Source of the DNA: a virus
DNA length: 25,162 bases
IMG/VR virus record: IMGVR_UViG_3300042295_000598
Coordinates: 1 to 25,162 of that record
Strand: one strand, 5' to 3'
Part shown: one piece after another, positions 4,481 through 25,162 of the stretch
Layout of the letters: every line of letters begins with the position of its first letter
Position numbering within the stretch: position 1 is the stretch's first letter
Notes under the pieces: model-generated
Databases searched by the model: none
Told to the model about the DNA's origin: nothing
The model's input: only the letters and a program-made list of their open reading frames with translations
Translations under genes and position numbers: made by a program

Positions 4481-7009
4481 TTAGATTTTGTAGATCTCGT
4501 AAACGTAGACGATGCCATCACCGCCGTTGCCGCCATCGCCGCTGATGCCATCGCCCACACCAACGGTCCCTCCGCCGCCGCCGCCACCACCTGCGGAGAT
4601 AGCACCATTCCCGCCGTTACCAGCATTGGCTAATGCCGTACCTGCACCGCCTCCTCCACCACCGCCGCCAGCACCATTGGTTGTTGCGACACCATAGGAA
4701 GATAGCAGCGTAAGAACTATGTTGCCTGTGCCGTTCCCTCCATTGCCAGCACCTGTTGAACCGGGCAATCCCTGACCCGTCAGAGCAGCTCCATTCCAAA
4801 CATCGCCGCCCCCTCTTGCGGAAGTTGTGTTTCCACCGACTTGTCTTGATCCACCATTGCCACCCGGAGCGCCACCCGGAGCGCGGCTGCTGTTGGTAGT
4901 AAACTGAGGGACACCCGTTGTAGGCCAATAATATCCCGCACACCCACCTACGTTGCCAGCTCGCATTGCTGGATGTCCAAGCATAATGTTAGATCCCTTG
5001 AGTGGCGTACAGCCTACTACGTCACGTCCTGTTTCTGCCCCTGTTCCTACGGCTCCACCCAATGCAACAACGTGCGTTCCGAAGGATGCATCGCCGCCAA
5101 GGGTGCCAGCGATACCAGCACCATCCGTGTTGCGTCCGGGCGCACCTGCACCGCCTAACGGCACGGTGACAGACTCTGTGCCACCAAGCGATGCCGCTGC
5201 GATAAAATCCCACACCACCCATCCGCCACCACCGCCTGATCCACCCGTGGCCTGTATCGTTGTGCCTGTGCGAAGGTCACCACATTCACCACCACCACCA
5301 GCACCCACGCACACGACGAACGCGCCGACGAACGATGCGTCAGCTGGCTTGTTCCAGGTGTCGCTGGCCGTGTACTCTCGAAGAACGTTAGCGGGTGCTG
5401 CCACCACCCATGCACCGCTCACCAGCGAGCCGACGTCGTTGCCGTTGCTGTCGTGCACATCCACAGGTGCCGTGGCCCCGCAAGGGTCGGCCACCGTGCT
5501 ATACGTCGTGCCGTTGATAGTCACCGTCAGGTCCGCACACGGCACTTCGTTGCCACCGCAGTAGGCACCGATGGTAGCCTGCTCCACCGTCACGCTGGTC
5601 GCGCTCCAGTCAGCATCCCACGGGAAGGTCTCACTTCCCAACGCAGCATCCACGTCGCTACCCGGCTTCACCAGCCGCCACCTGCTCCCAGTGTACTCCA
5701 GGTTGTGGCTGCCATCCAGCGTGTAGACCTCGCGGCCGTTGAGCGTGCCGGTGACCAGGTAGGTGCCGGTGACGCTGCCGCCATCCTGCACATAGGCCGC
5801 GTCCAGCAGGGTGCCGCAGTCAAGGTTTCCGCTCGCTCCGCTTGGAACAGACAGCACAGGCAGACCATCGAAGGTCACATCTGCATCGGGTGCAACAAGG
5901 TTTAGCGATGCGCCACACGGGTCAACAACAACTCCCGATTCAAGTTCGGTATCGTCGGTGTTCACCAGGCTATAGGACAGGTCATCGCATGGCGGGCATT
6001 CCGGCACCACCCACTCCGTACCGTTCCAACTTCCTACTTCAAGGCCACCTTGCGTTACTGCGATAGCCACGCTCTCACCACAGGGATTCGGCACGATGAT
6101 CACACCATCCTCCGCGTTGATGCTGATAGTCAAATCATCGCATGGCGGGCATTCCGGAACCACCCATTGACCGCCTATCAACTCGCCTACGAGAACATCG
6201 CCCTGCACTACTTCGACCGAAGCGATTCCACCGCAAGGGTCTTCGATGGTAGCATACGGCTCACCGTTCACACGAACAGACAGCGGGTCGCACTCCCCGC
6301 CATCGCAATCCAAGCACTCAGGACCAAGCTGTTCAGTGGTCAATCCGGTAACCGGATCCGTGAGCTCGTCGCAGGTGAACTCCGATGGATTTCGGCGCTT
6401 CTTTGTCACCGGAGGCGTCCAGCAGGCATCGTCATCGGGTACCGGGGCCTCCTCGCAGCCAGGCTTGATCCGGTAAGTGGCCGTAATGTCAACCGCAAAG
6501 GCATCAAAGGGCCAGAGCAGGTACTGGCGTGCTGCTTCCGGGTAGGTGTACTGGCTGAATATCGATGCACCCCGCTGGGGGAATCCATCGACCTGGTGAT
6601 TCAGCCCGATCAGCGTGTCCGTGTTATACGGCTGCCCCACGTTCAGGTCGTTCACGAACTGCTCAATGATGCGGTCCGCTGCGTTCGGGTCGCTGCCGAA
6701 CTTGGCGGTATTCACCCAACAGACCAAACGGAGCGATGCTGAGTAGAATGTTCCGCGTGTGCGCGTGGATTCGCGGGTCGTTCCACGGTCCTCGAAGTAC
6801 ACCATGCACCCGTAGCGGTCATCCGGCACCATGTCGCGAATCGTGGCAGGGTCGCAGGCATACGCCTCGTCAACGTCACCGGCCACCGGGATCACGATCT
6901 CCTTGCCTTCACGCTGCTGCCTGGCAACGCGGGTGAGGCCGCCGATCTTGTCCACGTAGGTGAACGCCGCGATGCGGTCCTTGAGGATGGTGGCGATGCG
7001 GTGGATCAT
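4481..7009 (-). CDS. Fusion of tail-terminator-like domain, cysteine repeats and glycine-rich adhesin
   Basis: An 842-residue protein in three parts. Residues 1-180 are a compact mixed alpha/beta domain (MIHRIATILKDRIAAF, then RLVCWVNTAKFG, then DRIIEQFVNDL) in the position and style of a tail terminator or completion protein. Residues about 240-398 and 491-540 hold about four copies of a 45-50-residue unit, C-x-x-L-(T/S), then DPCG, then WVVPECPPC. Between them, about 398-490, is a beta-rich stretch with GTYLVTGTLNGREVYTLDG. Residues 541-842 open with YTASDTWNKP and become extremely Gly-rich, including runs of eight glycines, like the glycine-rich receptor-binding ends of phage fibres (Gly_rich_2-like). 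Each part is plausible alone; finding all three in one frame is unusual. A single open frame with no sign of frameshift argues that the fusion is real. Confidence 0.7.
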   Translation of the reverse strand: MIHRIATILKDRIAAFTYVDKIGGLTRVARQQREGKEIVIPVAGDVDEAYACDPATIRDMVPDDRYGCMVYFEDRGTTRESTRTRGTFYSASLRLVCWVNTAKFGSDPNAADRIIEQFVNDLNVGQPYNTDTLIGLNHQVDGFPQRGASIFSQYTYPEAARQYLLWPFDAFAVDITATYRIKPGCEEAPVPDDDACWTPPVTKKRRNPSEFTCDELTDPVTGLTTEQLGPECLDCDGGECDPLSVRVNGEPYATIEDPCGGIASVEVVQGDVLVGELIGGQWVVPECPPCDDLTISINAEDGVIIVPNPCGESVAIAVTQGGLEVGSWNGTEWVVPECPPCDDLSYSLVNTDDTELESGVVVDPCGASLNLVAPDADVTFDGLPVLSVPSGASGNLDCGTLLDAAYVQDGGSVTGTYLVTGTLNGREVYTLDGSHNLEYTGSRWRLVKPGSDVDAALGSETFPWDADWSATSVTVEQATIGAYCGGNEVPCADLTVTINGTTYSTVADPCGATAPVDVHDSNGNDVGSLVSGAWVVAAPANVLREYTASDTWNKPADASFVGAFVVCVGAGGGGECGDLRTGTTIQATGGSGGGGGWVVWDFIAAASLGGTESVTVPLGGAGAPGRNTDGAGIAGTLGGDASFGTHVVALGGAVGTGAETGRDVVGCTPLKGSNIMLGHPAMRAGNVGGCAGYYWPTTGVPQFTTNSSRAPGGAPGGNGGSRQVGGNTTSARGGGDVWNGAALTGQGLPGSTGAGNGGNGTGNIVLTLLSSYGVATTNGAGGGGGGGGAGTALANAGNGGNGAISAGGGGGGGGTVGVGDGISGDGGNGGDGIVYVYEIYKI
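5819..6292 (-). repeat. Cysteine-bearing protein repeats within the fusion gene
   Basis: Three adjacent units start at Cys240, Cys290 and Cys341 of the 842-residue protein. Each has C-D-x-L near its start and DPCG or NPCG mid-unit. The first two end WVVPECPPC; the third is degenerate and lacks that ending. A fourth unit lies apart at residues 491-540 (5390-5539). The DNA of the first two boundaries is nearly the same (around 5988-6001 and 6141-6154), suggesting tandem duplication. Confidence 0.7.
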
Positions 7010-7013
7010 CGGT

Positions 7014-7331
7014 TCAGTCCCAAGCTACGGCCTGGTCGATCAGTCGGCGTGCCTCGTTCCATGCTTGCGCGGCCTTCATGGCTGCCTGCTGGGCGGCCCG
7101 AACCTTCGGGAAGCGTGCGGCAAGCGGAGCAAGGGCCTGGGCTACGTCATCCACGTCACCGGCGTTGAACATGTGGTCCTTGAACCGGCCTCCGGGGCTG
7201 GGGGCTTGTCCTGCGGCAATGGCCCGCTTGCCCGTATCGGTCAGACTGTTCCACTCGGCGTCGGATACGCCTGCGGGTTTCTGAATCTGTCCGATCGGCA
7301 TTGCCCGACCGCCTTGGTATTTTACTGCCAT
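7014..7331 (-). CDS. QGG-tag small protein 7 (105 aa)
   Basis: It begins MAVKYQGGRAMP, the shared N-terminal peptide of the array. The body (residues about 13-70) is polar with GVSDAEWNSLTDTGKRAIAA and AGQAPSPGGRFKD, then a long Ala-rich helix (about 72-105, AARFPKVRAAQQAAMKAAQA). It is the largest tagged member and lies between the gp10-like gene and the terminator/adhesin fusion. Its first 29 bases plus leader match those of the tagged gene at 7875-8120 with one mismatch, so these two starts are recent copies. Function unknown. Confidence 0.8.
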   Translation of the reverse strand: MAVKYQGGRAMPIGQIQKPAGVSDAEWNSLTDTGKRAIAAGQAPSPGGRFKDHMFNAGDVDDVAQALAPLAARFPKVRAAQQAAMKAAQAWNEARRLIDQAVAWD

Positions 7332-7340
7332 CGTTGTAGG
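7312..7340 (-). repeat. Copied gene-start segment (pair with 8101-8129)
   Basis: The 29 bases spanning leader, ATG and the first codons of the tagged gene ending at 7014 match 8101-8129 with a single mismatch. Both read CCTACAACG ATG GCA GT(A/T) AAA TAC CAA GG on the coding strand. The bodies of the two genes downstream are unrelated by eye. Confidence 0.85.
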
Positions 7341-7343
7341 TCT

Positions 7344-7871
7344 TTATGATTCAAGGAATCGTTCGGCGAACCCGGTCATCCGCTCTTTGCTGTCCGCCCC
7401 GAGTTCGTTCACTTCTTTCTCCGACAGGCTGAACCAGTCCTTCCGGTAGTTGTCGTTGCCCTCCATCTTGCCCCGCGTCTCTTCGGTACGGCCCGTCACA
7501 ATCACTTTGACACCCTTGTCCGTGTCAATCACTTCGGTCAGGCCGATGTTCGACAGCATCCGCCCAGTGAGCGTGAAGTTCACAAAGCCCGTGAAGCGTC
7601 CAACGGGCTGGTCACCAGATGCCGGTGCAGTGGCCCGACGTGCCCGCTGCTTGGCCGACTTGTTGCCGCCGACCGCTTGCCGCTTGAATGCTTCGTAAGC
7701 GGGCGTGTAGGGTTTGAAGGGCGTCCCGTTCTGGTCGCGCCCCGTCTCGCTTACCCGCTGGATCACCTTGGAAAGCCCGTCCGTGGCGACCGTCTCCATC
7801 TCGGTGCGCAGGGCACTCTGAAGGACTGGCACCAACTCGTTCAGGCGGGCTTCCAGGGTTTCGAGGGTCAT
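7344..7871 (-). CDS. Mu gpG / HK97 gp10-like tail completion protein
   Basis: A 175-residue protein. An N-terminal helix (MTLETLEARLNELVPVLQSA) is followed by DQNGTPFKPYTPAYEAFKRQ (about 48-67) and FTLTGRMLSNIGLTEV (about 98-113), then beta strands and an acidic C-terminus. The G-x-PF-x-x-Y-x-x-x-Y-x-x-x-K and LTG-x-ML signatures are typical of phage virion morphogenesis proteins of the Mu gpG/HK97 gp10 kind, which act at the head-tail joint. Position agrees, since it lies after the capsid gene and just before the terminator-like fusion. Its first and last few codons also occur as isolated fragments at 8151-8167 and 8361-8375, so a second copy may once have existed upstream. Confidence 0.75.
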   Translation of the reverse strand: MTLETLEARLNELVPVLQSALRTEMETVATDGLSKVIQRVSETGRDQNGTPFKPYTPAYEAFKRQAVGGNKSAKQRARRATAPASGDQPVGRFTGFVNFTLTGRMLSNIGLTEVIDTDKGVKVIVTGRTEETRGKMEGNDNYRKDWFSLSEKEVNELGADSKERMTGFAERFLES

Positions 7872-7874
7872 GGT

Positions 7875-8120
7875 TCAGGTCGTGAGGTCCCGGATGATGC
7901 CCTGCATCTTGGTCATCATCTCAAGATACTGCCGCGCCTTGGACAATCTTTCCGGATCGTTCGTGGCGCGGCCAACAGACTGCATGGCTGCCAACGCCCT
8001 GACCAGCTCACGCTCCGCTTGGAATACCTCGCGCTTGATGCGGGCGATTGTTTCCATCGTTCCGGGGTTCAATGTGGGGCCTTGCATGACTGCCTTCCCC
8101 CCTTGGTATTTAACTGCCAT
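7875..8120 (-). CDS. QGG-tag small protein 6 (81 aa)
   Basis: It begins MAVKYQGGKAVM, then has a helical body: TMETIARIKREVFQAERELV (about 21-40), a turn near GRATNDPE, and a second helix (KARQYLEMMTKMQGIIRDL, about 61-79). This helix-turn-helix-hairpin layout is shared with the other array members. It lies 3 bases upstream of the gp10-like gene. No enzymatic motif, signal peptide or membrane segment is visible. Function unknown; a small virion-associated or virion-delivered protein is possible. Confidence 0.8.
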   Translation of the reverse strand: MAVKYQGGKAVMQGPTLNPGTMETIARIKREVFQAERELVRALAAMQSVGRATNDPERLSKARQYLEMMTKMQGIIRDLTT

Positions 8121-8129
8121 CGTTGTAGG
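8101..8129 (-). repeat. Copied gene-start segment (pair with 7312-7340)
   Basis: Second member of the 29-base pair, covering the leader and start of the tagged gene at 7875-8120, with 28 of 29 bases identical to 7312-7340. Confidence 0.85.
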
Positions 8130-8150
8130 TGTTTGGGTTTACGGGTTAAT

Positions 8151-8167
8151 GGTTTCGAGGGTCATGG
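8151..8167 (-). repeat. Stranded copy of the gp10-like gene start
   Basis: The 17 bases at 8151-8167 are identical to 7857-7873, which include the start codon of the gp10-like gene. Here the frame reads M-T-L-E-T-I-N-P then a stop at once, just upstream of a tagged small gene. This looks like the stub of a lost or never-completed second copy. Confidence 0.75.
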
Positions 8168-8168
8168 G

Positions 8169-8357
8169 TCACTCCTTGATCAGCATTTGCGCTTCCACCA
8201 CGCGGGTGATTGCGTTCTGAAGGATTCCGCTCAGGCGGTTGGCCTTGGCGCGGTCCATGCCCGGAATCCGTCCGACCTGCTGTTGGATGGCCTCCAGTTG
8301 GTCCAAGGCGTCGTCCATCTTTCTCGCAACCATGGAGGCTTCCCGTGAGTTACCCAC
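8169..8357 (-). CDS. Untagged sibling of the QGG-tag small proteins
   Basis: A helical protein of about 54-62 residues ending ITRVVEAQMLIKE. The longer form uses a GTG at 8355-8357. An ATG at 8331-8333 gives MVARKMDDALDQLEAIQQQV and is my preferred start, though neither has a clear ribosome site. The hairpin layout (helix, GRIPGMD turn, helix) matches tagged neighbours, but the QGG peptide is absent. The DNA just upstream (8361-8375) is a fragment of another gene's end, so the tagged start may have been replaced. It could be a decaying copy or a functional untagged version. Confidence 0.55.
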   Translation of the reverse strand: MGNSREASMVARKMDDALDQLEAIQQQVGRIPGMDRAKANRLSGILQNAITRVVEAQMLIKE

Positions 8358-8360
8358 CGG

Positions 8361-8375
8361 TATGATTCAAGGAAT
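8361..8375 (-). repeat. Stranded copy of the gp10-like gene end
   Basis: The 15 bases at 8361-8375 are identical to 7345-7359, which encode the last residues (FLES) and stop region of the gp10-like gene. Here they follow an orphan ATG and run on without that stop. With the matching start fragment at 8151-8167 they bracket the untagged small gene. Confidence 0.7.
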
Positions 8376-8386
8376 TGGGTCATGGG

Positions 8387-8692
8387 TTACGCTTTCACCA
8401 GGTAGTGACGGCGCATGAATTGCTCAAGCGTTTCTCCGTCCATGATGTCCTTGAAGATGATACCCTCTTTGGTGGTCTTGCCAAGTGCCACCATGGTCCT
8501 TTGCATCCTGATCCCAACCCTTGAATCGTAATACCCGGGCTGTTCTTGGATGTTCATCGGCTCAAGGAAGAAGCCAGGCGGCATTGTCGTCTCCTTGAGT
8601 TTTTTGGGGAGACCCATTAAGATCTTTCTTGCGTTCTCAAGGGCTGGGACCCTGAATGGTACCGCCTTGCCGCCTTGAAATTTCACTGCCAT
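8387..8692 (-). CDS. QGG-tag small protein 5 (101 aa)
   Basis: It begins MAVKFQGGKAVP, followed by a body unlike the helical-hairpin siblings: a basic helix (ENARKILMGLPKKLKETT, about 19-36), a Pro/Gly-rich middle (PPGFFLEPMNIQEQPGYYDS) and a C-terminal part with GIIFKDIMDGETLEQFMRRH. It starts one base after the stop of the 387-residue virion protein, so the two are probably translated together. The middle resembles a folded domain more than a coiled coil. No family recognised. Confidence 0.8.
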   Translation of the reverse strand: MAVKFQGGKAVPFRVPALENARKILMGLPKKLKETTMPPGFFLEPMNIQEQPGYYDSRVGIRMQRTMVALGKTTKEGIIFKDIMDGETLEQFMRRHYLVKA

Positions 8693-8693
8693 C

Positions 8694-9857
8694 TTAGCTT
8701 AGGATTGTGCTACGCCGCATGCCCCAGCGGTCCTTACACCGCCGACAGTCGCCGTAGCTGTTGATGTTCTGCTCCTCGGAAAACTTCACGCATAGGTACC
8801 CTTGGATGCCCTCGCTGAAGGTCTTGTTGTAGCTATCACGTAACGCCTCAAGCTGGTCGCCTGCCGTCATCGTGTAGCGGTTGATCGATGTGCTTTGCAG
8901 GATCTGGGTGATCAGGTTTGCCCCGGCCTTGAACCGCATGGTGTGGGCCAGCACGTTCATCACCTCGTCAAATCGGTAGTTCGGGCTATCCGGGCAGAAG
9001 GTGCTGCGAATATCGCACTCGAACTGGACCTTGATCAGAAGGCCCTGCGTAGCGTTCACCGTACCCCATTCGCTGCGGCGGTCCAGGTCGTTGCCGCTCG
9101 TGCCAGCAGCCATGCACCACTCGGCCCACAGCCTGCCGTTCTTCTGCTGGATGCTCTGGTACTGCGGACGGTTCTCGTCCCATGTGGGCCTGAAGCCTCC
9201 GCAGCCGCAGGAGCACTCGCTGTTCATTGCTGTCAGCCCTTCGGTGGGTTCGTACATGGCCCAGAAGCGCGGATTGCCGGTGCCGAGCTCGCTCATGTCC
9301 AAGTCCAGCGGCTCGGGGAGCGTGGTCCATACGATGCGGCCGGACGTGGCGGGTAGCGCGTAGGTGATCAGCGGAACATCACCATCGTACTCCGTGCGGC
9401 CGTAGATGCTCACCGGAATCGTTGCAGGGACCGTGCCCTTGAAGGCCGTGGCGATGGCAACGATACGGAAGTGACCGCCCCGGACCTTCGCGGTCTGGAT
9501 GGTCATGCCGTGGTACGACTTGGTGAGGCGGTGGGCTGTCTTGGCGGCGTTCTTCTCGTCGCCGATTACCGCGATGCCATCCTGCCTGCGGGCGTCCGTC
9601 CCCGCACCGATGCAGGCCCCGAGCTCGCTGATCGTGTCCTCGATGCCCGATGCCCGCGCCTTGTCCAGCATGTCCCAAAGGCCACCATCACCGCAGTCCT
9701 GCGCGTTGGATAGCAGTTGCAGGGACAGGCCGGGGAGTTCGTCGAGGAACAGGCCGCTCTCGCTGACGTTGGCCCCCACGGCGATCGGGTCCACGCACGC
9801 GCAGTCCTTGCGGGATAACCCGAAGACGTCAGTGAAGCAGGCGAGGTCGGCGCTCAT
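8694..9857 (-). CDS. Cysteine-rich virion protein of the head-tail region, unassigned
   Basis: A 387-residue protein in the head-tail connector interval. An N-terminal part has Cys7, Cys19, Cys21 and then SGLFLDELPGLSLQLL (about 34-49). A beta-rich middle (about 120-200) includes TIPVSIYGRTEYDGDVPLI. A cysteine knot-like CSCGCGG lies at about 215-221, with further cysteines at 248, 281, 288 and 356, and a terminal CRRCKDRWG at about 371-379. The spaced Cys pairs suggest metal binding or disulfides in the mature particle. It could be a connector, a decoration protein or even the tail-tube protein, since no other obvious tube gene is present upstream of the chaperone. It is flanked by tagged small genes on both sides. 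Confidence 0.65.
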   Translation of the reverse strand: MSADLACFTDVFGLSRKDCACVDPIAVGANVSESGLFLDELPGLSLQLLSNAQDCGDGGLWDMLDKARASGIEDTISELGACIGAGTDARRQDGIAVIGDEKNAAKTAHRLTKSYHGMTIQTAKVRGGHFRIVAIATAFKGTVPATIPVSIYGRTEYDGDVPLITYALPATSGRIVWTTLPEPLDLDMSELGTGNPRFWAMYEPTEGLTAMNSECSCGCGGFRPTWDENRPQYQSIQQKNGRLWAEWCMAAGTSGNDLDRRSEWGTVNATQGLLIKVQFECDIRSTFCPDSPNYRFDEVMNVLAHTMRFKAGANLITQILQSTSINRYTMTAGDQLEALRDSYNKTFSEGIQGYLCVKFSEEQNINSYGDCRRCKDRWGMRRSTILS

Positions 9858-9860
9858 GGG

Positions 9861-10109
9861 TTAGCGGCCGTTGCGTTCAACGATGGAGTTGATGAACTTC
9901 CGCAGCATCTGGTCTGCCTGCTGAAGTGCCCGCATTTCCTCGGTGGTTGCAACGCCAAGTTGCGAGACCTTGCTCAACAGGTCGGACATAGCGCCTTGTG
10001 CTTCAACCATGGCCGGTGAAACATTCCTGAAAGCGGCCATGTATGCCTGACGACGAGCGTCCGGTTGTCCCGCTGGGACCATCCTGCCCCCTTGTACCTT
10101 CATTGCCAT
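9861..10109 (-). CDS. QGG-tag small protein 4 (82 aa)
   Basis: It begins MAMKVQGGRMVP. The body is a helical hairpin: AMSDLLSKVSQLGVATTEEM (about 40-59), then RALQQADQMLRKFINSIVER (about 60-79). The second helix aligns by eye with that of the tagged gene at 10424-10657 (KKLRDAEDMLRSVMMEVEK), so these two are close paralogs. The leader and upstream DNA (to 10170) also copy those of that gene. It ends 3 bases before the 387-residue virion protein start. Function unknown. Confidence 0.82.
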   Translation of the reverse strand: MAMKVQGGRMVPAGQPDARRQAYMAAFRNVSPAMVEAQGAMSDLLSKVSQLGVATTEEMRALQQADQMLRKFINSIVERNGR

Positions 10110-10170
10110 AGTCGTGTGTGTTTCGTTGTTTACTGGGTTACAATTCGCTGGGCAGAGTTCTGCGCCATGG
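10073..10170 (-). repeat. Duplicated segment, copy B (end of one gene plus start of the next)
   Basis: About 98 bases match 10621-10719 with about twelve differences and a one-base gap. The segment covers the first codons and leader of the tagged gene at 9861-10109, then a stub encoding MAQNSAQRIVTQ and a stop. In copy A those 12 codons are the true end of the gene at 10679-10954. Here they lie after the stop of another gene and belong to nothing. Confidence 0.85.
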
Positions 10171-10171
10171 G

Positions 10172-10390
10172 TTAGCGGTTGGCCACTTTTTGAACCGTTG
10201 TCAATGCCGACGCCAAGGCTTTCTGGATGCGCTGAAGGTCTGCGTCCGGGATGCTTCCTTCTGCCTCAGTCATTACACGGAAAAACCCCTGATACGCTGG
10301 GTCGAACTTGTTGATCGCCCACTCACGAAAGACCGACTTTGCCTGCGGGTTGACCGGAACCGCCTTACCGCCTTGGAATCGTACTGCCAT
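10172..10390 (-). CDS. QGG-tag small protein 3 (72 aa)
   Basis: It begins MAVRFQGGKAVP, then VNPQAKSVFREWAINKFDPA and a helical C-terminus (DLQRIQKALASALTTVQKVA, about 50-69). It lacks the longer first helix of some siblings and is the shortest tagged member. Directly after its stop lies an orphan 12-codon stub identical in peptide to the end of the gene at 10679-10954, which suggests this coding region replaced most of a sibling gene. Function unknown. Confidence 0.8.
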   Translation of the reverse strand: MAVRFQGGKAVPVNPQAKSVFREWAINKFDPAYQGFFRVMTEAEGSIPDADLQRIQKALASALTTVQKVANR

Positions 10391-10412
10391 GGGTTCTGTG
10401 TGTCTCGTTGTT

Positions 10413-10427
10413 TTATTCCTTGATCAG
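10413..10427 (-). repeat. Stranded sibling gene end (LIKE-stop)
   Basis: CTG ATC AAG GAA TAA reads L-I-K-E-stop, the same ending as the untagged gene at 8169-8357 (CTG ATC AAG GAG TGA). Here it overlaps the stop of the 77-residue gene in another frame. Twelve bases are identical between the two places. Confidence 0.5.
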
Positions 10428-10657
10428 CGGGCTGCTTTCTCTACTTCCATCATCACGGATCGAAGCATGTCTTCAGCGTCCCGCAATTTCTTGAAACGCT
10501 GCGCCGTGAAAGCATCGCTCATGCTCAAGGTGTTTCGCATGTTCGACAGGTCGGCGACAGTCTGCGCTGCTTGGCGCATGAAGGCGATGCGCTTTAATCC
10601 CTTACCGGGGTCGCTTTCCGCTGGCACCATCCGCCCGCCCTGTACTTTCATTGCCAT
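10424..10657 (-). CDS. QGG-tag small protein 2 (77 aa)
   Basis: It begins MAMKVQGGRMVP. The body has a basic stretch (DPGKGLKRIAFMRQAAQTVA, about 16-35) and a hairpin ending KKLRDAEDMLRSVMMEVEK (about 56-74). It is the nearest paralog of the tagged gene at 9861-10109 in body and leader. Leader AACACTTACGACT precedes the ATG with no Shine-Dalgarno box. Function unknown. Confidence 0.82.
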   Translation of the reverse strand: MAMKVQGGRMVPAESDPGKGLKRIAFMRQAAQTVADLSNMRNTLSMSDAFTAQRFKKLRDAEDMLRSVMMEVEKAAR

Positions 10658-10719
10658 AGTCGTAAGTGTTTCGTTGGGTTACTGGGTTACGATACGTTGG
10701 GCAGAGTTCTGCGCCATGG
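10621..10719 (-). repeat. Duplicated segment, copy A
   Basis: The source-like copy of the segment at 10073-10170. It spans the last 12 codons and stop of the 91-residue gene, the gap, and the first codons of the 77-residue gene. Its 41-base gene-end part (10679-10719) differs from copy B at three positions. Confidence 0.85.
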
Positions 10720-10954
10720 CAATCGCCGACTTGGAATCGCGCAGCGCCTTGACAACGGCCTCGATCTTGGTCGGGTTGACGTCCCCCGGCTTTGCGCTGC
10801 CTTGGATCTCGCTTACCCATTGAAGGGCCTCATCGACCTTGCCTAATTTCAGGGCTTCTTGCAGTCTAAACTCACGGTTTCGGAGCCAATCCCTGCGGGC
10901 CACTACGTCCCGGGAAAGTGGGACCATGCGTCCGCCTTGTACCTTCATTGCCAT
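10679..10954 (-). CDS. QGG-tag small protein 1 (91 aa), first of the array
   Basis: It begins MAMKVQGGRMVP, followed by RRDWLRNREFRLQEALKLGK (about 20-39), then EIQGSAKPGDVNPTKIEAVV (about 49-68) and a terminal helix ending AMAQNSAQRIVTQ. It is the first gene after the capsid gene, the hairpin at 11052-11081 and a promoter-like box, so it may be transcribed independently of the capsid operon. Its last 12 codons recur as an orphan stub at 10130-10170. Function unknown. Confidence 0.82.
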   Translation of the reverse strand: MAMKVQGGRMVPLSRDVVARRDWLRNREFRLQEALKLGKVDEALQWVSEIQGSAKPGDVNPTKIEAVVKALRDSKSAIAMAQNSAQRIVTQ

Positions 10955-11032: not shown

Positions 11033-11040
11033 CAAATGTA
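11033..11040 (-). promoter_or_regulatory. Bacteroidota-type -7 box candidate (TACATTTG)
   Basis: On the coding strand TACATTTG fits the TAnnTTTG -7 consensus known for Bacteroides. It sits just after the hairpin that follows the capsid gene, 78 bases before the first tagged small gene. I see no TTTG at the expected -33 spacing, so this is half a promoter at best. Confidence 0.3.
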
Positions 11041-11051
11041 TGGGCAAATGA

Positions 11052-11081
11052 GACCGGCCCGAGGTCTCCCCCGGGCCGGTC
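11052..11081 (-). terminator. GC-rich hairpin after the major capsid gene
   Basis: GACCGGCCCG and CGGGCCGGTC form a perfect 10-bp stem (11052-11061 with 11072-11081) around a 10-base loop. It lies 22 bases past the capsid stop. There is no long T run after it in the leftward direction, so it may attenuate, pause or stabilise the capsid message rather than fully terminate. Confidence 0.55.
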
Positions 11082-11103
11082 CCAAATTGTGACGCCGTGT
11101 CCC

Positions 11104-12144
11104 TTAGCTCGGCGCGTTGCCGCACACGAACTTCAGCACACCGGTCCGGTCGTTGTCGCATCCCAGAGGGTTCAAGAAGATGTCGCCACGGGTCTTGATC
11201 TTCCACACGTGCTTCACGTCATCGTTAGCGCACTTCTCCTGGTAGGCCACATCGTACACAATGCCGGGCAGGCTGTTGGACGGGATGGTGTACCAACGCT
11301 GTGGGCCGTCTGCCGTGTAGATCTCGCGACCTGCTGGACCGTAAGCCTCGTGGCGGGCCTTGGTGGCCATGGCAACGCTGTTCGGGTTGAACATGAACAG
11401 CGCCTTCTCACCCAGGATGGTGTCCATGCGACGGTCGAAGTAGGGCACCCCGAAGGATGTCATCTTCGCCTGGTTGCTGGCACCCGTGGGATCGCTGGTC
11501 TCCATGCCCACCTTCCACATGTACTGCTTCAGGAGGGTACCGGAGAGCATCTTGCCAGCGGTCAGCTTGTTGATCCACAGCGCCGTGTCGAAGTACCCGA
11601 ACAGGTCGGGGTTCCATGCCACGGCAGGGATGTAGGTCTCGCTGCCCACGACGGTGTACTGCCCGTCCGTGAACTTGTTGACCCCGGCCGATGCGTTCAG
11701 GAACGCGATCGCCTTGGCTGCCCAGAACTCGTCCATCAGCTTCATCTTCTTGAGCAGAGCCCGGGCCACCACTTCCTCCTGCGTGAGCAAGCTGGTGCGG
11801 AACATCTCCTCGGTGACGCTGAAGGACTTCTCGAAGCACTCCGTGAGCTCGTAGTTCACGCAGTTGTCGCCGATCTCGTCCCCGTCAATCGTGCACTGGT
11901 CGGTGCAGTCCTCGGGGTCGGTGTCGTCGCAGTCGTCAACCCAGTAGACCTTCAGTTCGCGGTCCTTCTCGGGGTTCTCCAGCACCTGGAGTTGTGCGGT
12001 CTGGCCGGACAGGATGGCGAGGGCAGGCTCAACGTCGGGGATGTACTCCGCGTTGATGATGCCATCGTTCCAGATTTCGGAGACCTTGGCCTTGATCTCG
12101 AGCAGCTTGGAGCAGTCGAAATTACCGGCGGTTGTAGTTGACAT
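11104..12144 (-). CDS. Major capsid protein
   Basis: A 346-residue protein after a putative scaffold and before the head-tail genes, the standard place for the capsid gene. The N-terminal arm is short. An acidic cysteine-rich insertion lies at about 70-103 (Cys72, 80, 84, 95, 103). Later parts are a helical stretch (TEEMFRTSLLTQEEVVARAL, about 111-130) and a mixed domain with SFGVPYFDRRMDTILGEKAL and FMFNPNSVAMATKAR. A C-terminal NPLGCDNDRTGVLKFVCGN adds two more cysteines. I associate such cysteine-bearing capsid proteins with Bacteroidota phages. Disulfide or metal crosslinking of the shell is possible. Identification rests on position, size and style, since capsid sequences diverge fast. 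Confidence 0.8.
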   Translation of the reverse strand: MSTTTAGNFDCSKLLEIKAKVSEIWNDGIINAEYIPDVEPALAILSGQTAQLQVLENPEKDRELKVYWVDDCDDTDPEDCTDQCTIDGDEIGDNCVNYELTECFEKSFSVTEEMFRTSLLTQEEVVARALLKKMKLMDEFWAAKAIAFLNASAGVNKFTDGQYTVVGSETYIPAVAWNPDLFGYFDTALWINKLTAGKMLSGTLLKQYMWKVGMETSDPTGASNQAKMTSFGVPYFDRRMDTILGEKALFMFNPNSVAMATKARHEAYGPAGREIYTADGPQRWYTIPSNSLPGIVYDVAYQEKCANDDVKHVWKIKTRGDIFLNPLGCDNDRTGVLKFVCGNAPS

Positions 12145-19148: not shown

Positions 19149-19467
19149 CGTCCGGGGTTGGCGGTTGGACCGTGACGTTGATCACCGGGGGCGTGGTGAC
19201 CAGTGATCCGGAGTGCTCATGCTGCTGGCGGGCCTTTCCGTACCCCCGGTCCAGCAGGATCTCGGCGGCGCGTAGGTCGCCCTTCGCTGCCTTGGCCCGG
19301 AGGACGCGCAGGATGGCCTCCAGTGCCGTGAGTTCGTCCTTTTCCTCCCCCAGCACATTGGCCATCAGCTTTTCCAAGTCGGGCAGCTTCTTGGGTCTCC
19401 CGTTTGGGTTGCCGGATTGGCCCTTCTTGAACCGGCTGTGCTCGGGTGGGTTCGGTCCCTGTTTCAT
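19141..19467 (-). CDS. DUF5681-type protein, putative terminase small subunit
   Basis: A 108-residue protein with the FKKGQSGNPNGRPKK signature at about 13-27, characteristic of DUF5681, then a helical middle (LTALEAILRVLRAKAAKGDL, about 47-66) and a Pro/Thr tail. It lies directly upstream of the large terminase with overlapping ends, the position of a small terminase that recognises phage DNA. The start at 19467 makes an ATGA overlap with the methyltransferase stop. A much longer in-frame extension exists but would duplicate the methyltransferase DNA and has no family match. Confidence 0.7.
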   Translation of the reverse strand: MKQGPNPPEHSRFKKGQSGNPNGRPKKLPDLEKLMANVLGEEKDELTALEAILRVLRAKAAKGDLRAAEILLDRGYGKARQQHEHSGSLVTTPPVINVTVQPPTPDDE

Positions 19468-21014
19468 CCCTGTAAGGTTTCCTGTTCGACCTTGTCTGCG
19501 GCCACCTCCTCGAAGGTCCTGCCAGTGGCCTCGTGAATGGCCTTGTTCCCCGTGAACGCTTCCCAACGCTTCACGGCCACGTCCACGTAGGCGGGCGTCA
19601 GTTCCATGCCGTAGCAGGTGCGTCCGCTTACCTGTGCGGCCATGATGGTCGAACCGCTTCCAATGAATGGCTCGAGCACAATGCCTCCCACTGGGCAACT
19701 GGAGCGGATGGCGCGTTCGGTCAGTGCTACCGGCTTGGGTGTTGCGTGTCCGTGGCGCTCCTCTCCCGTTACTCGGGGGAACTCCCACACGTCCCGCATG
19801 ATGTCGTGGGCGTTGTCGAAGAACGTGCGGGTCCCGTTGAACTGGCGGCTGAGTTCGTCCTTCACAGCATCCCATTCCCGCTTGAGCTCCTTCCACTCGC
19901 GCTTGAAGTGTCCCGGGTATGCTTCGCGCAGGGTCCGGTAGTGCTTGTCCGGGATCAGGGTGAACTGCGACCGGCTGAACCAGTGGCCGTACATGGAGCA
20001 CCCGCAGACGCGCTTGATGTCGCCCGGTGCGATTCCGGCTGCCTTGGCTTCGGCTTCAAGGGATGCGCGAAGCGGCTCCCAACTGTCGGGGAAGTCCTCC
20101 GTGTTGATGTTCCCCAGGAACTGCTTGCCGATCTGAAAGAACAGGCAGCGCTCACTGGCCTCGGGGTACTGGGTGAGGTCCGGCGATGCCATTCCGGGCA
20201 CGGCCTTCTTGTCCCATACGATCTCGTTGCGAATCTCCAGGTACTCGGAAGCCGAAAGGCCGCCAACGTACCACAGCCGCCAAAGGTCTGGAGCGTTCCC
20301 CCAGACGTAGGCGCTGCCGTTGTGCTCCATGTGTGGGCGGATGGTGCGCCACCAGTTCATCTGGAACTCGTCCAGCTTGGCTTTGTACAGGTTGTCGTTC
20401 TCCACCCCATCCGCCTCCTTTCCCATCCCGTATGGCGGGTCGGCGTGGCACAGGGAGGCCTGCTTGCCGTTCATCAGCCTTGCCACGTTCTCGGCGATGG
20501 TGGAATCCCCGCACATCAGGCGGTGGTCTCCAAGCCTCCAAACGTCCCCGGGCTGCGTCACGGGCTCCACCGGGATGGTCGGGATGTCATCGGGCTCGGT
20601 GTAACCTCCGCCCATTTCGCTGCCGAAGCCTTTGGGCAGGTCCATTCCCCAGTCCGAAAGCTGGTCGGCGTCCCATTCGTTGGCCAGCGCGTCCCAGTCC
20701 CATTCACCGAAGCCCACGTTGTCCTTGATCACGAACTGCTGGCGCTGCTCCTCGCTCCAATGGTCGGCAAGCATCACCGGTGCCTCCTTGATCTTCAGGT
20801 CTTGCAGGGCCTTCAGGCGCATGTTCCCGCCCAGCACCATGAACGTCCCGTCGGCCTGGCTCACGGCCACGATCGCCCGGTAGTTGAGCATGTCGGGGAA
20901 GTCGGTGATGGACTTCTTGAGCTTGGCGAACTTCTCGTCCCGAAGGACGCGGGGGTTGTTGGGGTTCCCCTTGAGCTTGCCCAGTGGGATGTTAATCGGG
21001 CCGTTGGTCTTCAT
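19464..21014 (-). CDS. ParB-domain DNA methyltransferase (beta class)
   Basis: A 516-residue protein. Residues 1-100 are a ParB/Srx-like domain (PLGKLKGNPNNPRVLRDEKF, then LGGNMRLKAL at about 61-70). The catalytic part has motif IV ADPPYGMG at 191-198, late HATPKPVAL at about 423-431 and motif I LEPFIGSGST at 447-456, so catalytic motifs precede the AdoMet motif as in beta-class N6-adenine or N4-cytosine enzymes. A segment at about 325-370 holds a putative DNA-binding insert (VCGCSMYGHWFSRSQ). No restriction gene lies beside it, so self-protection against host restriction, or regulation of packaging, is more likely than a full restriction system. The start overlaps the preceding stop (ATGA). 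Confidence 0.85.
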   Translation of the reverse strand: MKTNGPINIPLGKLKGNPNNPRVLRDEKFAKLKKSITDFPDMLNYRAIVAVSQADGTFMVLGGNMRLKALQDLKIKEAPVMLADHWSEEQRQQFVIKDNVGFGEWDWDALANEWDADQLSDWGMDLPKGFGSEMGGGYTEPDDIPTIPVEPVTQPGDVWRLGDHRLMCGDSTIAENVARLMNGKQASLCHADPPYGMGKEADGVENDNLYKAKLDEFQMNWWRTIRPHMEHNGSAYVWGNAPDLWRLWYVGGLSASEYLEIRNEIVWDKKAVPGMASPDLTQYPEASERCLFFQIGKQFLGNINTEDFPDSWEPLRASLEAEAKAAGIAPGDIKRVCGCSMYGHWFSRSQFTLIPDKHYRTLREAYPGHFKREWKELKREWDAVKDELSRQFNGTRTFFDNAHDIMRDVWEFPRVTGEERHGHATPKPVALTERAIRSSCPVGGIVLEPFIGSGSTIMAAQVSGRTCYGMELTPAYVDVAVKRWEAFTGNKAIHEATGRTFEEVAADKVEQETLQG

Positions 21015-21298
21015 TCCTCTGGGTTGGCGAATGCCATGGTCGGTGTGCTGTCGGTGGTCAGTTGCCCGACCTGAATGTTCTCGAATGCCACCTGAAGGAG
21101 CCAGTTGTAGACCTTGGCATGGCAGGGGATGCATCCGCTCATCATGGGGCCTCGGCTGCTGTGGGCGTTGAACAGGTTGAAGGCGCGGGCCATGGTCACG
21201 CTGTCCTTCCACTTAATGATGCCCCACCGTCCTCGGGGGATTTCCTCGATACGGGTGTCCTTGAGGATGGCGATGGCGTCTTCGGGTATGTTGCTCAT
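21011..21298 (-). CDS. Small protein of unknown function with CxxCH motif
   Basis: A 95-residue soluble protein with GRWGIIKWKDSVTMARAFNL (about 23-42) and SGCIPCHAKVYNWLL (about 54-68). The CxxCH string could bind a metal; heme attachment is unlikely without an export signal. Both ends overlap neighbours by ATGA, so it is translated with the methyltransferase. Confidence 0.65.
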   Translation of the reverse strand: MSNIPEDAIAILKDTRIEEIPRGRWGIIKWKDSVTMARAFNLFNAHSSRGPMMSGCIPCHAKVYNWLLQVAFENIQVGQLTTDSTPTMAFANPEE

Positions 21299-21989: not shown

Positions 21990-22220
21990 TCAGAAGTTCC
22001 AGACGTTATTCCAGATCCACATGGCGACAAGGTAGGCAGGCTTCCCGATGAGGGCAAACACCGAACCTCCCACCAGCAGGAAGACAGCCGCAGCGATTGC
22101 CGTCTGTGCGGCCCTGAATGCTGCTGTAATGATGCCAAGCTGCCAGACCTTTTTGAGGTACGTCAGAAGCGGACCGGGTTTCTGTTCAGGTCCAGCGGTT
22201 GTAGGTGTAGGCTCTGCCAT
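21990..22220 (-). CDS. Small single- or double-pass membrane protein
   Basis: A 76-residue protein with a Pro-rich N-terminus and a hydrophobic region from about 28 to 72 (AAFRAAQTAIAAAVFLLVGG, then YLVAMWIW). The start at 22220 overlaps the end of the preceding glycosyltransferase-like gene by 58 bases in another frame, and no later start keeps the membrane part. Size and charge pattern allow a holin or an anchor for the sugar enzymes; neither is shown. Confidence 0.55.
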   Translation of the reverse strand: MAEPTPTTAGPEQKPGPLLTYLKKVWQLGIITAAFRAAQTAIAAAVFLLVGGSVFALIGKPAYLVAMWIWNNVWNF

Positions 22221-23044
22221 GGTTCAGCGTTCAGGTTGATGGGTTTGCTATCCTCGTACCACTCCGGGTGCTTGGCGAAGGTACGCATGGCCTCGTCGGA
22301 GTAGATGATGTCGGTGACGTACTTCAGGCGCTGACGCCAGTTGCCCGTGGGACCGGTGCCACGGTTCTTTCCGTACAGGCCCGCGTGGTACGCCTTGGCC
22401 TGCCAGGGGTAAGCGATGGGCCGCGACTGCCGCATCTGGATCCGGCGGATCAGCCCGTCCTGCTCAACGTACCCGTGGCCGATCGGGCTGTTGGGGAAGG
22501 TCTTACGGCAGTACGCCTCCGGGTTTGTGAAGTAGTCGCCAACGCTGTGCGGCATGACCAGCGTTTGCAGCACCTCCTTGCGGAAGGCAACGCCGAGGCT
22601 GCAATAGTCGCCGTCGCTCAGGTAGTAGGCGTTGTTGGGACCTTGGTCAACGAGCTTCCGGTTGGGGTTGGCAACGGCAATGGAGCAGAACAGGGTCGGG
22701 TCCGCTTCGTGCACCTGCTCATGGAAGGCGAAGAAGTCCGTGGCTACCATGATGTCCTCCTCGATCAGTATCACCAGCCCATCGGATAGCTGGGCGGCCA
22801 GTGCGTACCCTTGGAGCAGGTTGTGGCTTTGCTTGCTGATCTCCCGATACTTCGTGGGGCCAGCCTCGCTGATCTGGTGGGAGAATGGAAAGCCCGCCAG
22901 CACCTCATGGATGGCCGGGTCGTAGCCTCGGTCCAGCCTGAAGATGTAATGGTAGGCGTCGGACCCGTGGGCTCGTTTGATGTTCTCCAGCGCGTGCCAG
23001 AGCATTTCCGGGCGACGCCAGCAGGGGATCAGGACTACGTTCAT
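22163..23044 (-). CDS. Glycosyltransferase-like protein (GT-A type, GNT-I-like)
   Basis: A 293-residue protein starting MNVVLIPCWRRPEMLWHALE, the opening of nucleotide-sugar transferases with a GT-A fold. An acidic LVILIEEDIMVATDFF (about 112-127) takes the place of the DxD metal site, as the EDD of the GNT-I family does. Later NNAYYLSDGDYCSLGVAF and IGHGYVEQDGLIRRI suggest acceptor and catalytic loops. The start at 23044 forms an ATGA overlap with the FkbM gene; an in-frame ORF upstream (to 23221) is antisense-like low-complexity sequence and was rejected. Likely adds a sugar to a phage or host surface glycan or to a virion protein. Confidence 0.75.
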   Translation of the reverse strand: MNVVLIPCWRRPEMLWHALENIKRAHGSDAYHYIFRLDRGYDPAIHEVLAGFPFSHQISEAGPTKYREISKQSHNLLQGYALAAQLSDGLVILIEEDIMVATDFFAFHEQVHEADPTLFCSIAVANPNRKLVDQGPNNAYYLSDGDYCSLGVAFRKEVLQTLVMPHSVGDYFTNPEAYCRKTFPNSPIGHGYVEQDGLIRRIQMRQSRPIAYPWQAKAYHAGLYGKNRGTGPTGNWRQRLKYVTDIIYSDEAMRTFAKHPEWYEDSKPINLNAEPWQSLHLQPLDLNRNPVRF

Positions 23045-23745
23045 GGTCGGAGGCGTGCTGCTGGGGTGTAGGTGACGGGATAGCGCCCCGAGGCGCTGAA
23101 GTGGAAGGTCGGGGCCAGGTTGTACCGCTCGGTGAGCACGTACCCAAGCGGGGCAAGCAGGGCGCTGATGCTTTCCAGCACCGGCTCGTCCCATATCTCG
23201 ATGAAGAGTTCCGGCTTGCAACGGCGGATGGTCTGCATCGCCCCAGCAAGTGCTGCCTCCTCCATGCCCTCCACGTCCAGCTTGATCACCCGAACGTCAT
23301 CGGTATCCCGCACGTGGTTGTCGATCTTGGCGATGGCAATCCCGGCCTCGCAGCCTTCGTCCGGCGTGAGTTCCCACTGGCAGTTCTTCCCAGTGCCTCC
23401 CAGCTTGGCCGATGCGTAGCCCTCCTCCCGGCCAACGCCCTCCTGAATCACCAAAACCTTTCCGCCACGGTTGAAGTGTGCCACGTTGAAGATGAGCAGT
23501 TCGGCGTTGACCTCCATCGGCTCGAAGGCAATCACCTGATCCGCCCAGAGTGCGAAGGGCAGCGTATGGTTCCCCACGTTGGCCCCTGCATCAATCCATA
23601 CTCCGCCGCGTGGAAGGTTCCGTTCCATCCAGTCGAGCATGTGGTGTTCGCAGAGCTCCCCATTCCGGTAGTGCGTCTCCATGATCTCGTCATCCACGCG
23701 GATGGTGAAGGTGTGGCCATATCGGGTGATCTGGTAGGTGTTCAT
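23041..23745 (-). CDS. FkbM-family methyltransferase
   Basis: A 234-residue AdoMet-dependent methyltransferase. Motif I GVWIDAGANVGNHTLPFAL lies at about 48-66, the acidic AFEPMEVNAELL at about 74-85, and VIKLDVEGMEEAAL at about 153-166, a hallmark of the FkbM family. A WD-containing C-terminal segment (ELFIEIWDEPVLESISALLA) completes the fold. FkbM enzymes commonly O-methylate sugars, and this one sits between glycosyltransferase genes with ATGA overlaps at both ends, so it probably caps or decorates the same glycan. Confidence 0.85.
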   Translation of the reverse strand: MNTYQITRYGHTFTIRVDDEIMETHYRNGELCEHHMLDWMERNLPRGGVWIDAGANVGNHTLPFALWADQVIAFEPMEVNAELLIFNVAHFNRGGKVLVIQEGVGREEGYASAKLGGTGKNCQWELTPDEGCEAGIAIAKIDNHVRDTDDVRVIKLDVEGMEEAALAGAMQTIRRCKPELFIEIWDEPVLESISALLAPLGYVLTERYNLAPTFHFSASGRYPVTYTPAARLRP

Positions 23746-24356
23746 GCGGTTCTGGGGAATAAATAGCCAGCGGTCTGGCCGTCATGGTGGTGGTTTCCGA
23801 TGGTGCTGTCGCTGGTGCCGATGTGGTCGGCGAGGCTGGGGACGTGGAAGAACAGCCGCGTCCCGGTCCTGCGCATGGCCTCGAACAGAACGGAGTCCGG
23901 CTTGCGGGCCAAAGTCTCCGGGGCCTCCTCAATCACATCCTCCATCACCTCGGCCACAGCTTGGGCCAGCCAGCAAGGCATAATCACGGAACCGCCCCAT
24001 AGGTGGTAGTGCGGTTCGACCTCCAGCCAGCCTCGCTCCTCCCTTCGGTCGTGGGGGATGTTCTGTTCTATGGTCCACAGGCTGTACCCCGTCCGGTAGA
24101 AGCGCAGCGGGGATGTGATGCGAAGGAGGAACGACTGGTCGAAGATCAGGTCGTCATCTACCACGACCATCAGTTCGGGGCCTTCGCCTTGTGCAAGGTC
24201 GCGCATGGCCCGGATCAGGTTGCGCGTGGGGCCGAACTCTCCGCCGTCGGCGTAGACCTTCACCTGGCCGATGCCAGCGGCGTGAAGCGATGCGATGGTG
24301 GCCGGAAGCGTGCAGCGTTGCGAGGCGGTATAGTGGATGATGCCGACGCGGATCAT
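23742..24356 (-). CDS. Glycosyltransferase-like protein with DDD motif
   Basis: A 204-residue protein opening MIRVGIIHYTASQRCTLPAT, with an acidic MVVVDDDLIFDQSF (about 62-75) as the likely metal and nucleotide-sugar site of a GT-A fold. YADGGEFGPTRNLIRAMRDL (about 35-54) fits the segment before the DxD in GT2 enzymes, and HYHLWGGSVIMPCWLAQAV marks a likely acceptor loop. It is shorter than most free-standing GT2 enzymes, so a minimal catalytic domain is likely. Both ends overlap neighbours by ATGA. Confidence 0.7.
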   Translation of the reverse strand: MIRVGIIHYTASQRCTLPATIASLHAAGIGQVKVYADGGEFGPTRNLIRAMRDLAQGEGPELMVVVDDDLIFDQSFLLRITSPLRFYRTGYSLWTIEQNIPHDRREERGWLEVEPHYHLWGGSVIMPCWLAQAVAEVMEDVIEEAPETLARKPDSVLFEAMRRTGTRLFFHVPSLADHIGTSDSTIGNHHHDGQTAGYLFPRTA

Positions 24357-25162
24357 TTCAGCAGGCGGATTAGGTTCTCCTCAAATGCCGCCCCGTCCTT
24401 CAGGTACTGCTCCCGCGCATGGCCACCAAGTTCCACCAGCAGGGGAAGCGGGCACGCCATAGCAGACCGGATGCAATGCGCCAAGGCTTGAGGGTCAACG
24501 TGCTGGTGGGTAGCCAAGTTCTGCCATCCACGTGAAGCTACCCCAGCCAAAAGGCCGAACTCCCCGCCGACCAACTCATCCATGGGGTGCCCAGCCGTGG
24601 AGATGATCACCGCACCCGCCGACCGGGCCTCGTTGATGTAGTGGCCGAAGCCCTCGTACGAAGAGGGGCAGACGTGGACCGCATGTTCATTCATCAGCCG
24701 CTTGAGTTCAGCCGCGTCCTGCCTGCCCAGCACCGTGACGTTCTCCGGGGGCGATGCAATCGGGTTCTTCGTGACCATCGTCAGGTGGTGCTGGGGAAGC
24801 ATCCGCATGGCCTCGATCACCGCCGCCGTGCCCTTGGCCGAGGACCCGCCTGCAACGTGAAGCAGGGCCTTCTTCCGCTTCACCGTTGGGTCGTGCATGT
24901 CGAAGGAACTCCAGCCCGTGTACTGCACGTCGCGGTGCAAGCCTTGAAAGATGCGCTCACAGTCCCGCGTCTTGGCCCATACCTGGGTAAGCCCGTGCAA
25001 ATGTGGTCGCCATTCCCGCACGAACCATTCGGGGTTTGGGACCAAGATGTTCCGCTTGGCGCTCTGGTAGTGGTTCGGGTTCAGAAGCTCGATGAAGATG
25101 TTCACGTCGAAAGACCCCGCCGCCGATGGCTTGGCCTGCCAGTCCACCGAACTCACCTGCAT
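24353..25162 (-). CDS. GT4-type glycosyltransferase, probably cut at the right edge
   Basis: 269 residues are visible. The C-terminal Rossmann domain has LLHVAGGSSAKGTAAVIEAM (about 102-121) and the donor-binding VCPSSYEGFGHYINEARSAG (about 169-188), whose two glutamates fit the EX7E motif of GT4 (GT-B) enzymes. The N-terminal acceptor domain is short for the family, and the only start is the ATG at the very edge, so the gene probably continues to the right. The DxD-lacking GT-B fold differs from the two GT-A-like proteins after it, so the cluster covers at least two sugar-transfer chemistries. Confidence 0.75.
   Translation of the reverse strand: MQVSSVDWQAKPSAAGSFDVNIFIELLNPNHYQSAKRNILVPNPEWFVREWRPHLHGLTQVWAKTRDCERIFQGLHRDVQYTGWSSFDMHDPTVKRKKALLHVAGGSSAKGTAAVIEAMRMLPQHHLTMVTKNPIASPPENVTVLGRQDAAELKRLMNEHAVHVCPSSYEGFGHYINEARSAGAVIISTAGHPMDELVGGEFGLLAGVASRGWQNLATHQHVDPQALAHCIRSAMACPLPLLVELGGHAREQYLKDGAAFEENLIRLLK

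Follow-up and report, generated by a model that had tools for sequence, protein, structure and literature searches.

We report the analysis of seven small genes that share one N-terminal peptide, here called the tag, in a virus record of 25,162 bases (IMGVR_UViG_3300042295_000598; the window, or G000, is this whole record). The seven open reading frames (ORFs) lie on the minus strand, with the putative capsid gene on one side and the tail genes on the other, and begin MA[MV][KR][VFY]QGG[KR]..., a start that is kept ahead of bodies of different families among which no homology is detectable, so that the tag likely serves a common partner outside the bodies. By analogy with the internal proteins of phage T4 we propose, with middling confidence, that the 12-residue N-terminus would be a docking peptide through which small, interchangeable accessory proteins are brought into the virion.

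A degenerate DNA pattern for the tag, allowing up to three mismatches, has 7 sites in the 25 kb, which are exactly the seven ORFs, and a mean of 0 in 100 dinucleotide shuffles of the window, none of which gave a match. An earlier interpretation made by a model from the letters alone (the sequence-only reading) had described seven genes starting with a 12-residue pattern between the capsid and tail genes; all seven are where it placed them and their setting is confirmed, with the capsid gene assigned by position only. On the minus strand the gene order runs terminase, portal, MuF-like protein, small proteins, scaffold-like protein and putative capsid protein, and continues with slot A, a 387-residue protein, slot B, a 175-residue protein, slot C, an 842-residue protein and the tape measure. 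Slot A holds genes 1 (10679-10954, 91 residues, tag MAMKVQGGRMVP in codons 10919-10954), 2 (10424-10657, 77 residues, tag MAMKVQGGRMVP at 10622-10657), 3 (10172-10390, 72 residues, tag MAVRFQGGKAVP at 10355-10390) and 4 (9861-10109, 82 residues, tag MAMKVQGGRMVP at 10074-10109). Slot B holds genes 5 (8387-8692, 101 residues, tag MAVKFQGGKAVP at 8657-8692) and 6 (7875-8120, 81 residues, tag MAVKYQGGKAVM at 8085-8120), and slot C gene 7 (7014-7331, 105 residues, tag MAVKYQGGRAMP at 7296-7331). Two sub-types of tag can be distinguished, MAMKVQGGRMVP in three genes near the capsid gene and MAV[KR][FY]QGG[KR]A.. in the remaining four.

Relatives were found by scanning viral contigs for the same core, with the reservation that pattern-based scans miss distant relatives, and five informative phage records and one outgroup were available for comparison. 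The capsid protein of G001 (IMGVR_UViG_3300042992_001231) is 100% identical to that of the window, those of G002 (3300048586_000138) and G003 (3300048586_000088) are 90% and 78-79% identical, G004 (3300042891_000958) is a fragment that stops inside the capsid gene, and G005 (3300049847_000386) is more distant, at 52% for the portal and 49% for the 387-residue protein. Counting the window, tagged genes occur in five distinct records of uncultured phages and always within the same three gaps of the late block, slots A, B and C holding 4, 2 and 1 of them in the window, 2, 2 and 1 in G001, 1, 1 and 0 in G002, 1, 0 and 0 in G003 and 2, 1 and 0 in G005, where the tag has diverged to MAL[KT]F[TK]GG[KS]A (MALTFKGGSAFP, MALKFTGGKAAT and MALKFTGGKAVD). 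Outside the late block, the whole records G000 to G004 hold at up to three mismatches a single three-mismatch match without an ATG start, and no convincing tag motif was found in other proteins of these phages; the RHSQGG or RHYQGG at the C-terminus of the tape measure was judged coincidental. The still more distant record L037, whose homologue of the 387-residue protein is 32% identical, keeps the capsid, 387-residue and tail proteins in the same order with no tagged gene in any slot, and the tagged genes are therefore accessory. The sequence-only reading had proposed a search for the pattern across phages: four further related records carry it (G005 in diverged form), in the structural block. 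When a relaxed pattern was run over viral contigs, most matches outside this clade were short or internal, and the few at protein starts (for example that of a 445-residue protein) were unrelated. Bacterial genome contigs scanned with the putative capsid protein and the terminase yielded no relative.

The nucleotide differences between the tags are mainly synonymous, and the peptide is therefore selected. Gly7-Gly8 is invariant in all 18 tags while all four glycine codons are used, which bears out the earlier remark that the Q-G-G codons vary and the residues stay. Among the seven tags of the window the proportions of synonymous (pS) and non-synonymous (pN) differences are 0.64 and 0.23 for codons 2-12; in the QGG[KR] codons they are 0.67 and 0.11 (pN/pS 0.16). 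These values are indicative only, tag pairs being non-independent and synonymous change near saturation. Non-orthologous tags of G000 to G003 are 52% identical at third codon positions as against 76% at first and second positions together. Judged from these comparisons the tag peptide is under purifying selection, and near-saturated synonymous differences combined with kept residues rule out recent duplication as the sole cause of the common tag. To this extent the sequence-only reading, which had favoured selection over recent copying alone, is upheld by a check of the type of the non-synonymous to synonymous rate ratio (dN/dS) that it had suggested. Copying nevertheless contributes as well, since recombination exchanges leaders and tags, and since likeness among the tags follows the phage lineage more closely than the body family (permutation p=0.001): orthologues have tags 42-67% identical, and tags within G005 are 58-83% identical. 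Such grouping fits either gene conversion or co-adaptation with a lineage-specific partner.

A comparison of the window with G001 shows how the bodies are exchanged. In slot C the leader and the first tag codons through Gly8 are nearly identical in the two phages, after which wholly different bodies follow (105 residues in the window, 78 in G001), and identity resumes at the start of the gene for the 842-residue protein; slot B shows the same pattern for gene 6 (81 residues, and an unrelated 77-residue body in G001), and the breakpoint of the swap thus falls within the tag. Genes 2 and 3 are absent from G001, gene 4 encodes an identical protein there, and genes 1 (91 residues) and 5 have orthologues. 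Three body families are common to window/G001 and G005, of 91/94 residues (gene 1, body identity 53%), of 105/101 residues (gene 7, a slot C gene in the window whose G005 counterpart occupies slot A) and of 77 residues in both G001 and G005.

The spaces between the cassettes carry remnants of neighbouring genes as scars, all on the minus strand: a 41-nucleotide copy (93%) of the 3' end of gene 1 ahead of gene 4 (10130-10170, repeat D3), a 21-nucleotide copy (95%) of the start of the 175-residue protein gene ahead of gene 6 (8151-8171, repeat D5) and a 15-nucleotide exact copy of the end of that same gene (8361-8375, repeat D9). In slot B of G005 a remnant of the start of the 387-residue protein gene follows the tagged gene, as would be expected for a cassette that originated in slot A. 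The gene-end scars suggest that cassettes spread by unequal recombination. On the simplest account, homologous recombination of this kind between leader-and-tag sequences would duplicate the gene that lies between two tags, and the extra copy of a core gene would then decay and leave remnants. Between two tagged genes there is, furthermore, an untagged, body-like putative ORF (8169-8333, minus strand; 54 residues from ATG, or 62 with the GTG at 8357), which has scars of the 175-residue protein gene on both sides, encodes an identical protein in the window and G001, and may be a former tagged gene that has lost its tag.

Behind the tag, no pair of different body families reaches a probability of 5% in profile comparison. 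In Pfam and PHROGs the 16 aligned tagged proteins had no credible match, and a search of the tagged proteins against the PDB likewise gave none; three of them, searched by tblastn against 50,697 phage records, had no match. Not one cysteine occurs in the 1105 residues of 15 distinct bodies. The sequence-only reading had described most of the bodies as helical hairpins; the one member modelled, the 91-residue protein of gene 1, is predicted by AlphaFold2 as a beta-hairpin tag (strands 3-6 and 9-12 around Gly7-Gly8) followed by three helices (15-37, 40-53 and 61-86), with a mean predicted local distance difference test score (pLDDT) of 84. A fold search with this model found nothing at E<=0.001.

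A hairpin rich in guanine and cytosine (11049-11084, minus strand) follows the putative capsid gene, and ahead of slot A lies TACATTTG (11033-11040, minus strand), a match to TAnnTTTG, the -7 promoter box of Bacteroidota. In each of the five tagged phages the hairpin and then TACATTTG separate the capsid gene from the first tagged gene, with TACATTTG either 64 or 76 nucleotides past the capsid stop codon; on that strand four of these records have TACATTTG a single time and the remaining one has it twice. This arrangement suggests that the tagged genes may head a late transcript of their own. Among those core proteins that were searched against cultured phages, the portal alone gave a match, a weak one: its distant homology, 21% over 34% of the portal (E=2e-3), is to the Polaribacter phages P12002L and P12002S, which differ in that they gave no match to the putative capsid protein, the 387-residue protein or the three tagged proteins searched. 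Because of this portal homology and the -7 box, the host is probably a member of the Bacteroidota.

The functional comparison with T4, already drawn in the sequence-only reading, is the right one (PMC9026906, PMC12373910). In T4 a capsid targeting sequence of 10 residues brings unrelated proteins into the head (PMC9026906). Ip1, Ip2 and Ip3 have only this leader in common; once injected, each blocks a different GmrSD restriction enzyme (PMC12373910). T4-like phages have internal proteins IPI, IPII, IPIII and others, at least 10 of which have been reported. The tagged proteins resemble them in the short common N-terminal peptide (about 10 residues in T4) before unrelated small bodies, in a repertoire that varies between close relatives and in the exchange of bodies at hotspots (for T4, PMC9026906, PMC12373910). 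They differ in the tag itself, MA.K.QGG[KR], which is set apart from the T4 leader by description, in bodies without detectable homology to known phage proteins, T4 internal proteins included, in phage lineage, in lying inside the capsid-to-tail block and in that no prohead protease of S78 or ClpP type was recognised. We therefore propose that the tagged proteins would work like T4 internal proteins without being members of that group. Encapsulins and extracellular contractile injection systems also use N- or C-terminal cargo-loading peptides for unrelated proteins, and a short peptide that sends unrelated proteins into a shell or tube is common to them and the present case; these are, however, bacterial particles and not phage heads, and the likeness is one of description only.

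According to the loading model, the tag, probably a small beta-hairpin with a Gly-Gly turn, would dock onto a single partner, common to all the tagged proteins, while the head or neck is assembled, for which the scaffold, capsid or portal protein is a candidate. The bodies would be the payload, quickly replaced by recombination, and would be packaged, injected and work in the host cell infected next, against its defences for instance; the fast turnover of bodies within the late structural block makes targets in the host the most plausible. The sequence-only reading had likewise inferred a shared address label, and it is supported in part: selection, recurrence in five records, restriction to the late block and body swaps are all predicted by such a label, whereas virion loading is still a proposal. 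More tentatively, and with a good deal of doubt, the genes could represent an independent virion cargo system of Bacteroidota phages that works without a T4-type protease, with a beta-hairpin label, one structural receptor, anti-defence payloads and label DNA that acts as the crossover point for payload gain and multiplication. Several points weigh against loading, in which virion location, packaging and injection are all predictions. No recognisable S78 or ClpP-type prohead protease was found in G000, G001, G003 or G005 (a search for S77 gave no match, but neither did its controls), which leaves a T4-like cleavage step unsupported; the two model blocks that hold the tag are of modest confidence (pLDDT 59 and 71); and although most bodies have an isoelectric point above 9, their charge is not distinct from that of other small ORFs of these phages (p=0.36), for which reason basic charge was dropped as an argument for internal proteins. 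Finally, 15% of non-orthologous body pairs exceed shuffles at p<0.05, where 5% is expected, an excess that could stem from helical periodicity or from very ancient shared ancestry and leaves an ancient common fold possible.

That excess, together with the similar size and helical composition of most bodies, also speaks for regarding the genes as a single, rapidly evolving family of small paralogues with structural or assembly roles, such as head-tail joining factors, in which the tag is the conserved part of a single fold. We consider this unlikely, given the profile comparisons, lengths that range from 72 to 105 residues, numbers that vary down to none in L037, and bodies swapped as blocks with the break inside the tag. 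A tag predicted as beta strands and a slot A directly after the putative capsid gene would suit a docking arm for the capsid exterior; lambda-type phages have decoration proteins that place an N-terminal strand on the capsid, and the tagged proteins would then be alternative decorations, each adding its N-terminal strand to a sheet of the capsid and exposing a variable body at the surface. The same sites would, however, be contested by up to seven different proteins, neck and tail genes surround slots B and C, and the number of tagged genes runs from 1 to 7 across close relatives, so that decoration is also improbable in our view.

The least probable of the explanations, and one to which we give very little credence, is that the common start acts chiefly at the DNA or RNA level, as an element of recombination or of translation initiation, and that the peptide has no common function. 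Leader and tag DNA do mark the exchange breakpoints, the tags are alike by lineage over body family and the scars indicate unequal exchange, but the poorer identity of third codon positions in non-orthologous tags speaks for the peptide, which moreover is recognisable at the protein level in a phage about 50% diverged in the portal and the 387-residue protein.

If proteins are indeed loaded by the tag, it would flag injected proteins by sequence in Bacteroidota phages, of which few are known; each tagged body would count as a possible inhibitor of host defence, and the tag itself would offer a short handle with which to load proteins of choice into such particles. A single literature search for a comparable system in phages of Bacteroidota turned up none. 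From the body swaps and scars it can be seen how a phage may gain payload genes and keep the address.

Among the core proteins, the terminase matches phrog_979 (E=3e-21) and the portal phrog_7376 (E=4e-12), while the MuF-like label was assigned by eye and the scaffold-like label by position. The putative major capsid protein (346 residues, 11104-12144, minus strand) was likewise assigned by position and has no family match in Pfam or PHROGs. The 387-residue protein (8694-9857, minus strand), conserved among the relatives, is cysteine-rich and stands directly after the capsid gene and slot A in all of them; its model, of low to medium confidence, has a beta-rich middle flanked by helices, and a fold search found nothing at E<=0.001. 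The conserved 175-residue core protein (7344-7871) and the 842-residue tail-associated protein (4481-7009; phrog_863, E=7e-7) are encoded on the same strand. The minus strand also encodes, at 19464-21158, a member of the N6_N4_Mtase family of DNA methylases (Pfam, E=6e-30), with an N-terminal part that is ParB-like by eye, through which the phage may modify its DNA. Upstream of the terminase, a minus-strand cluster at 22163-25162 encodes a group 1 glycosyltransferase (24353-25162), an FkbM methyltransferase (23041-23745) and two further ORFs that appear glycosyltransferase-like by eye.

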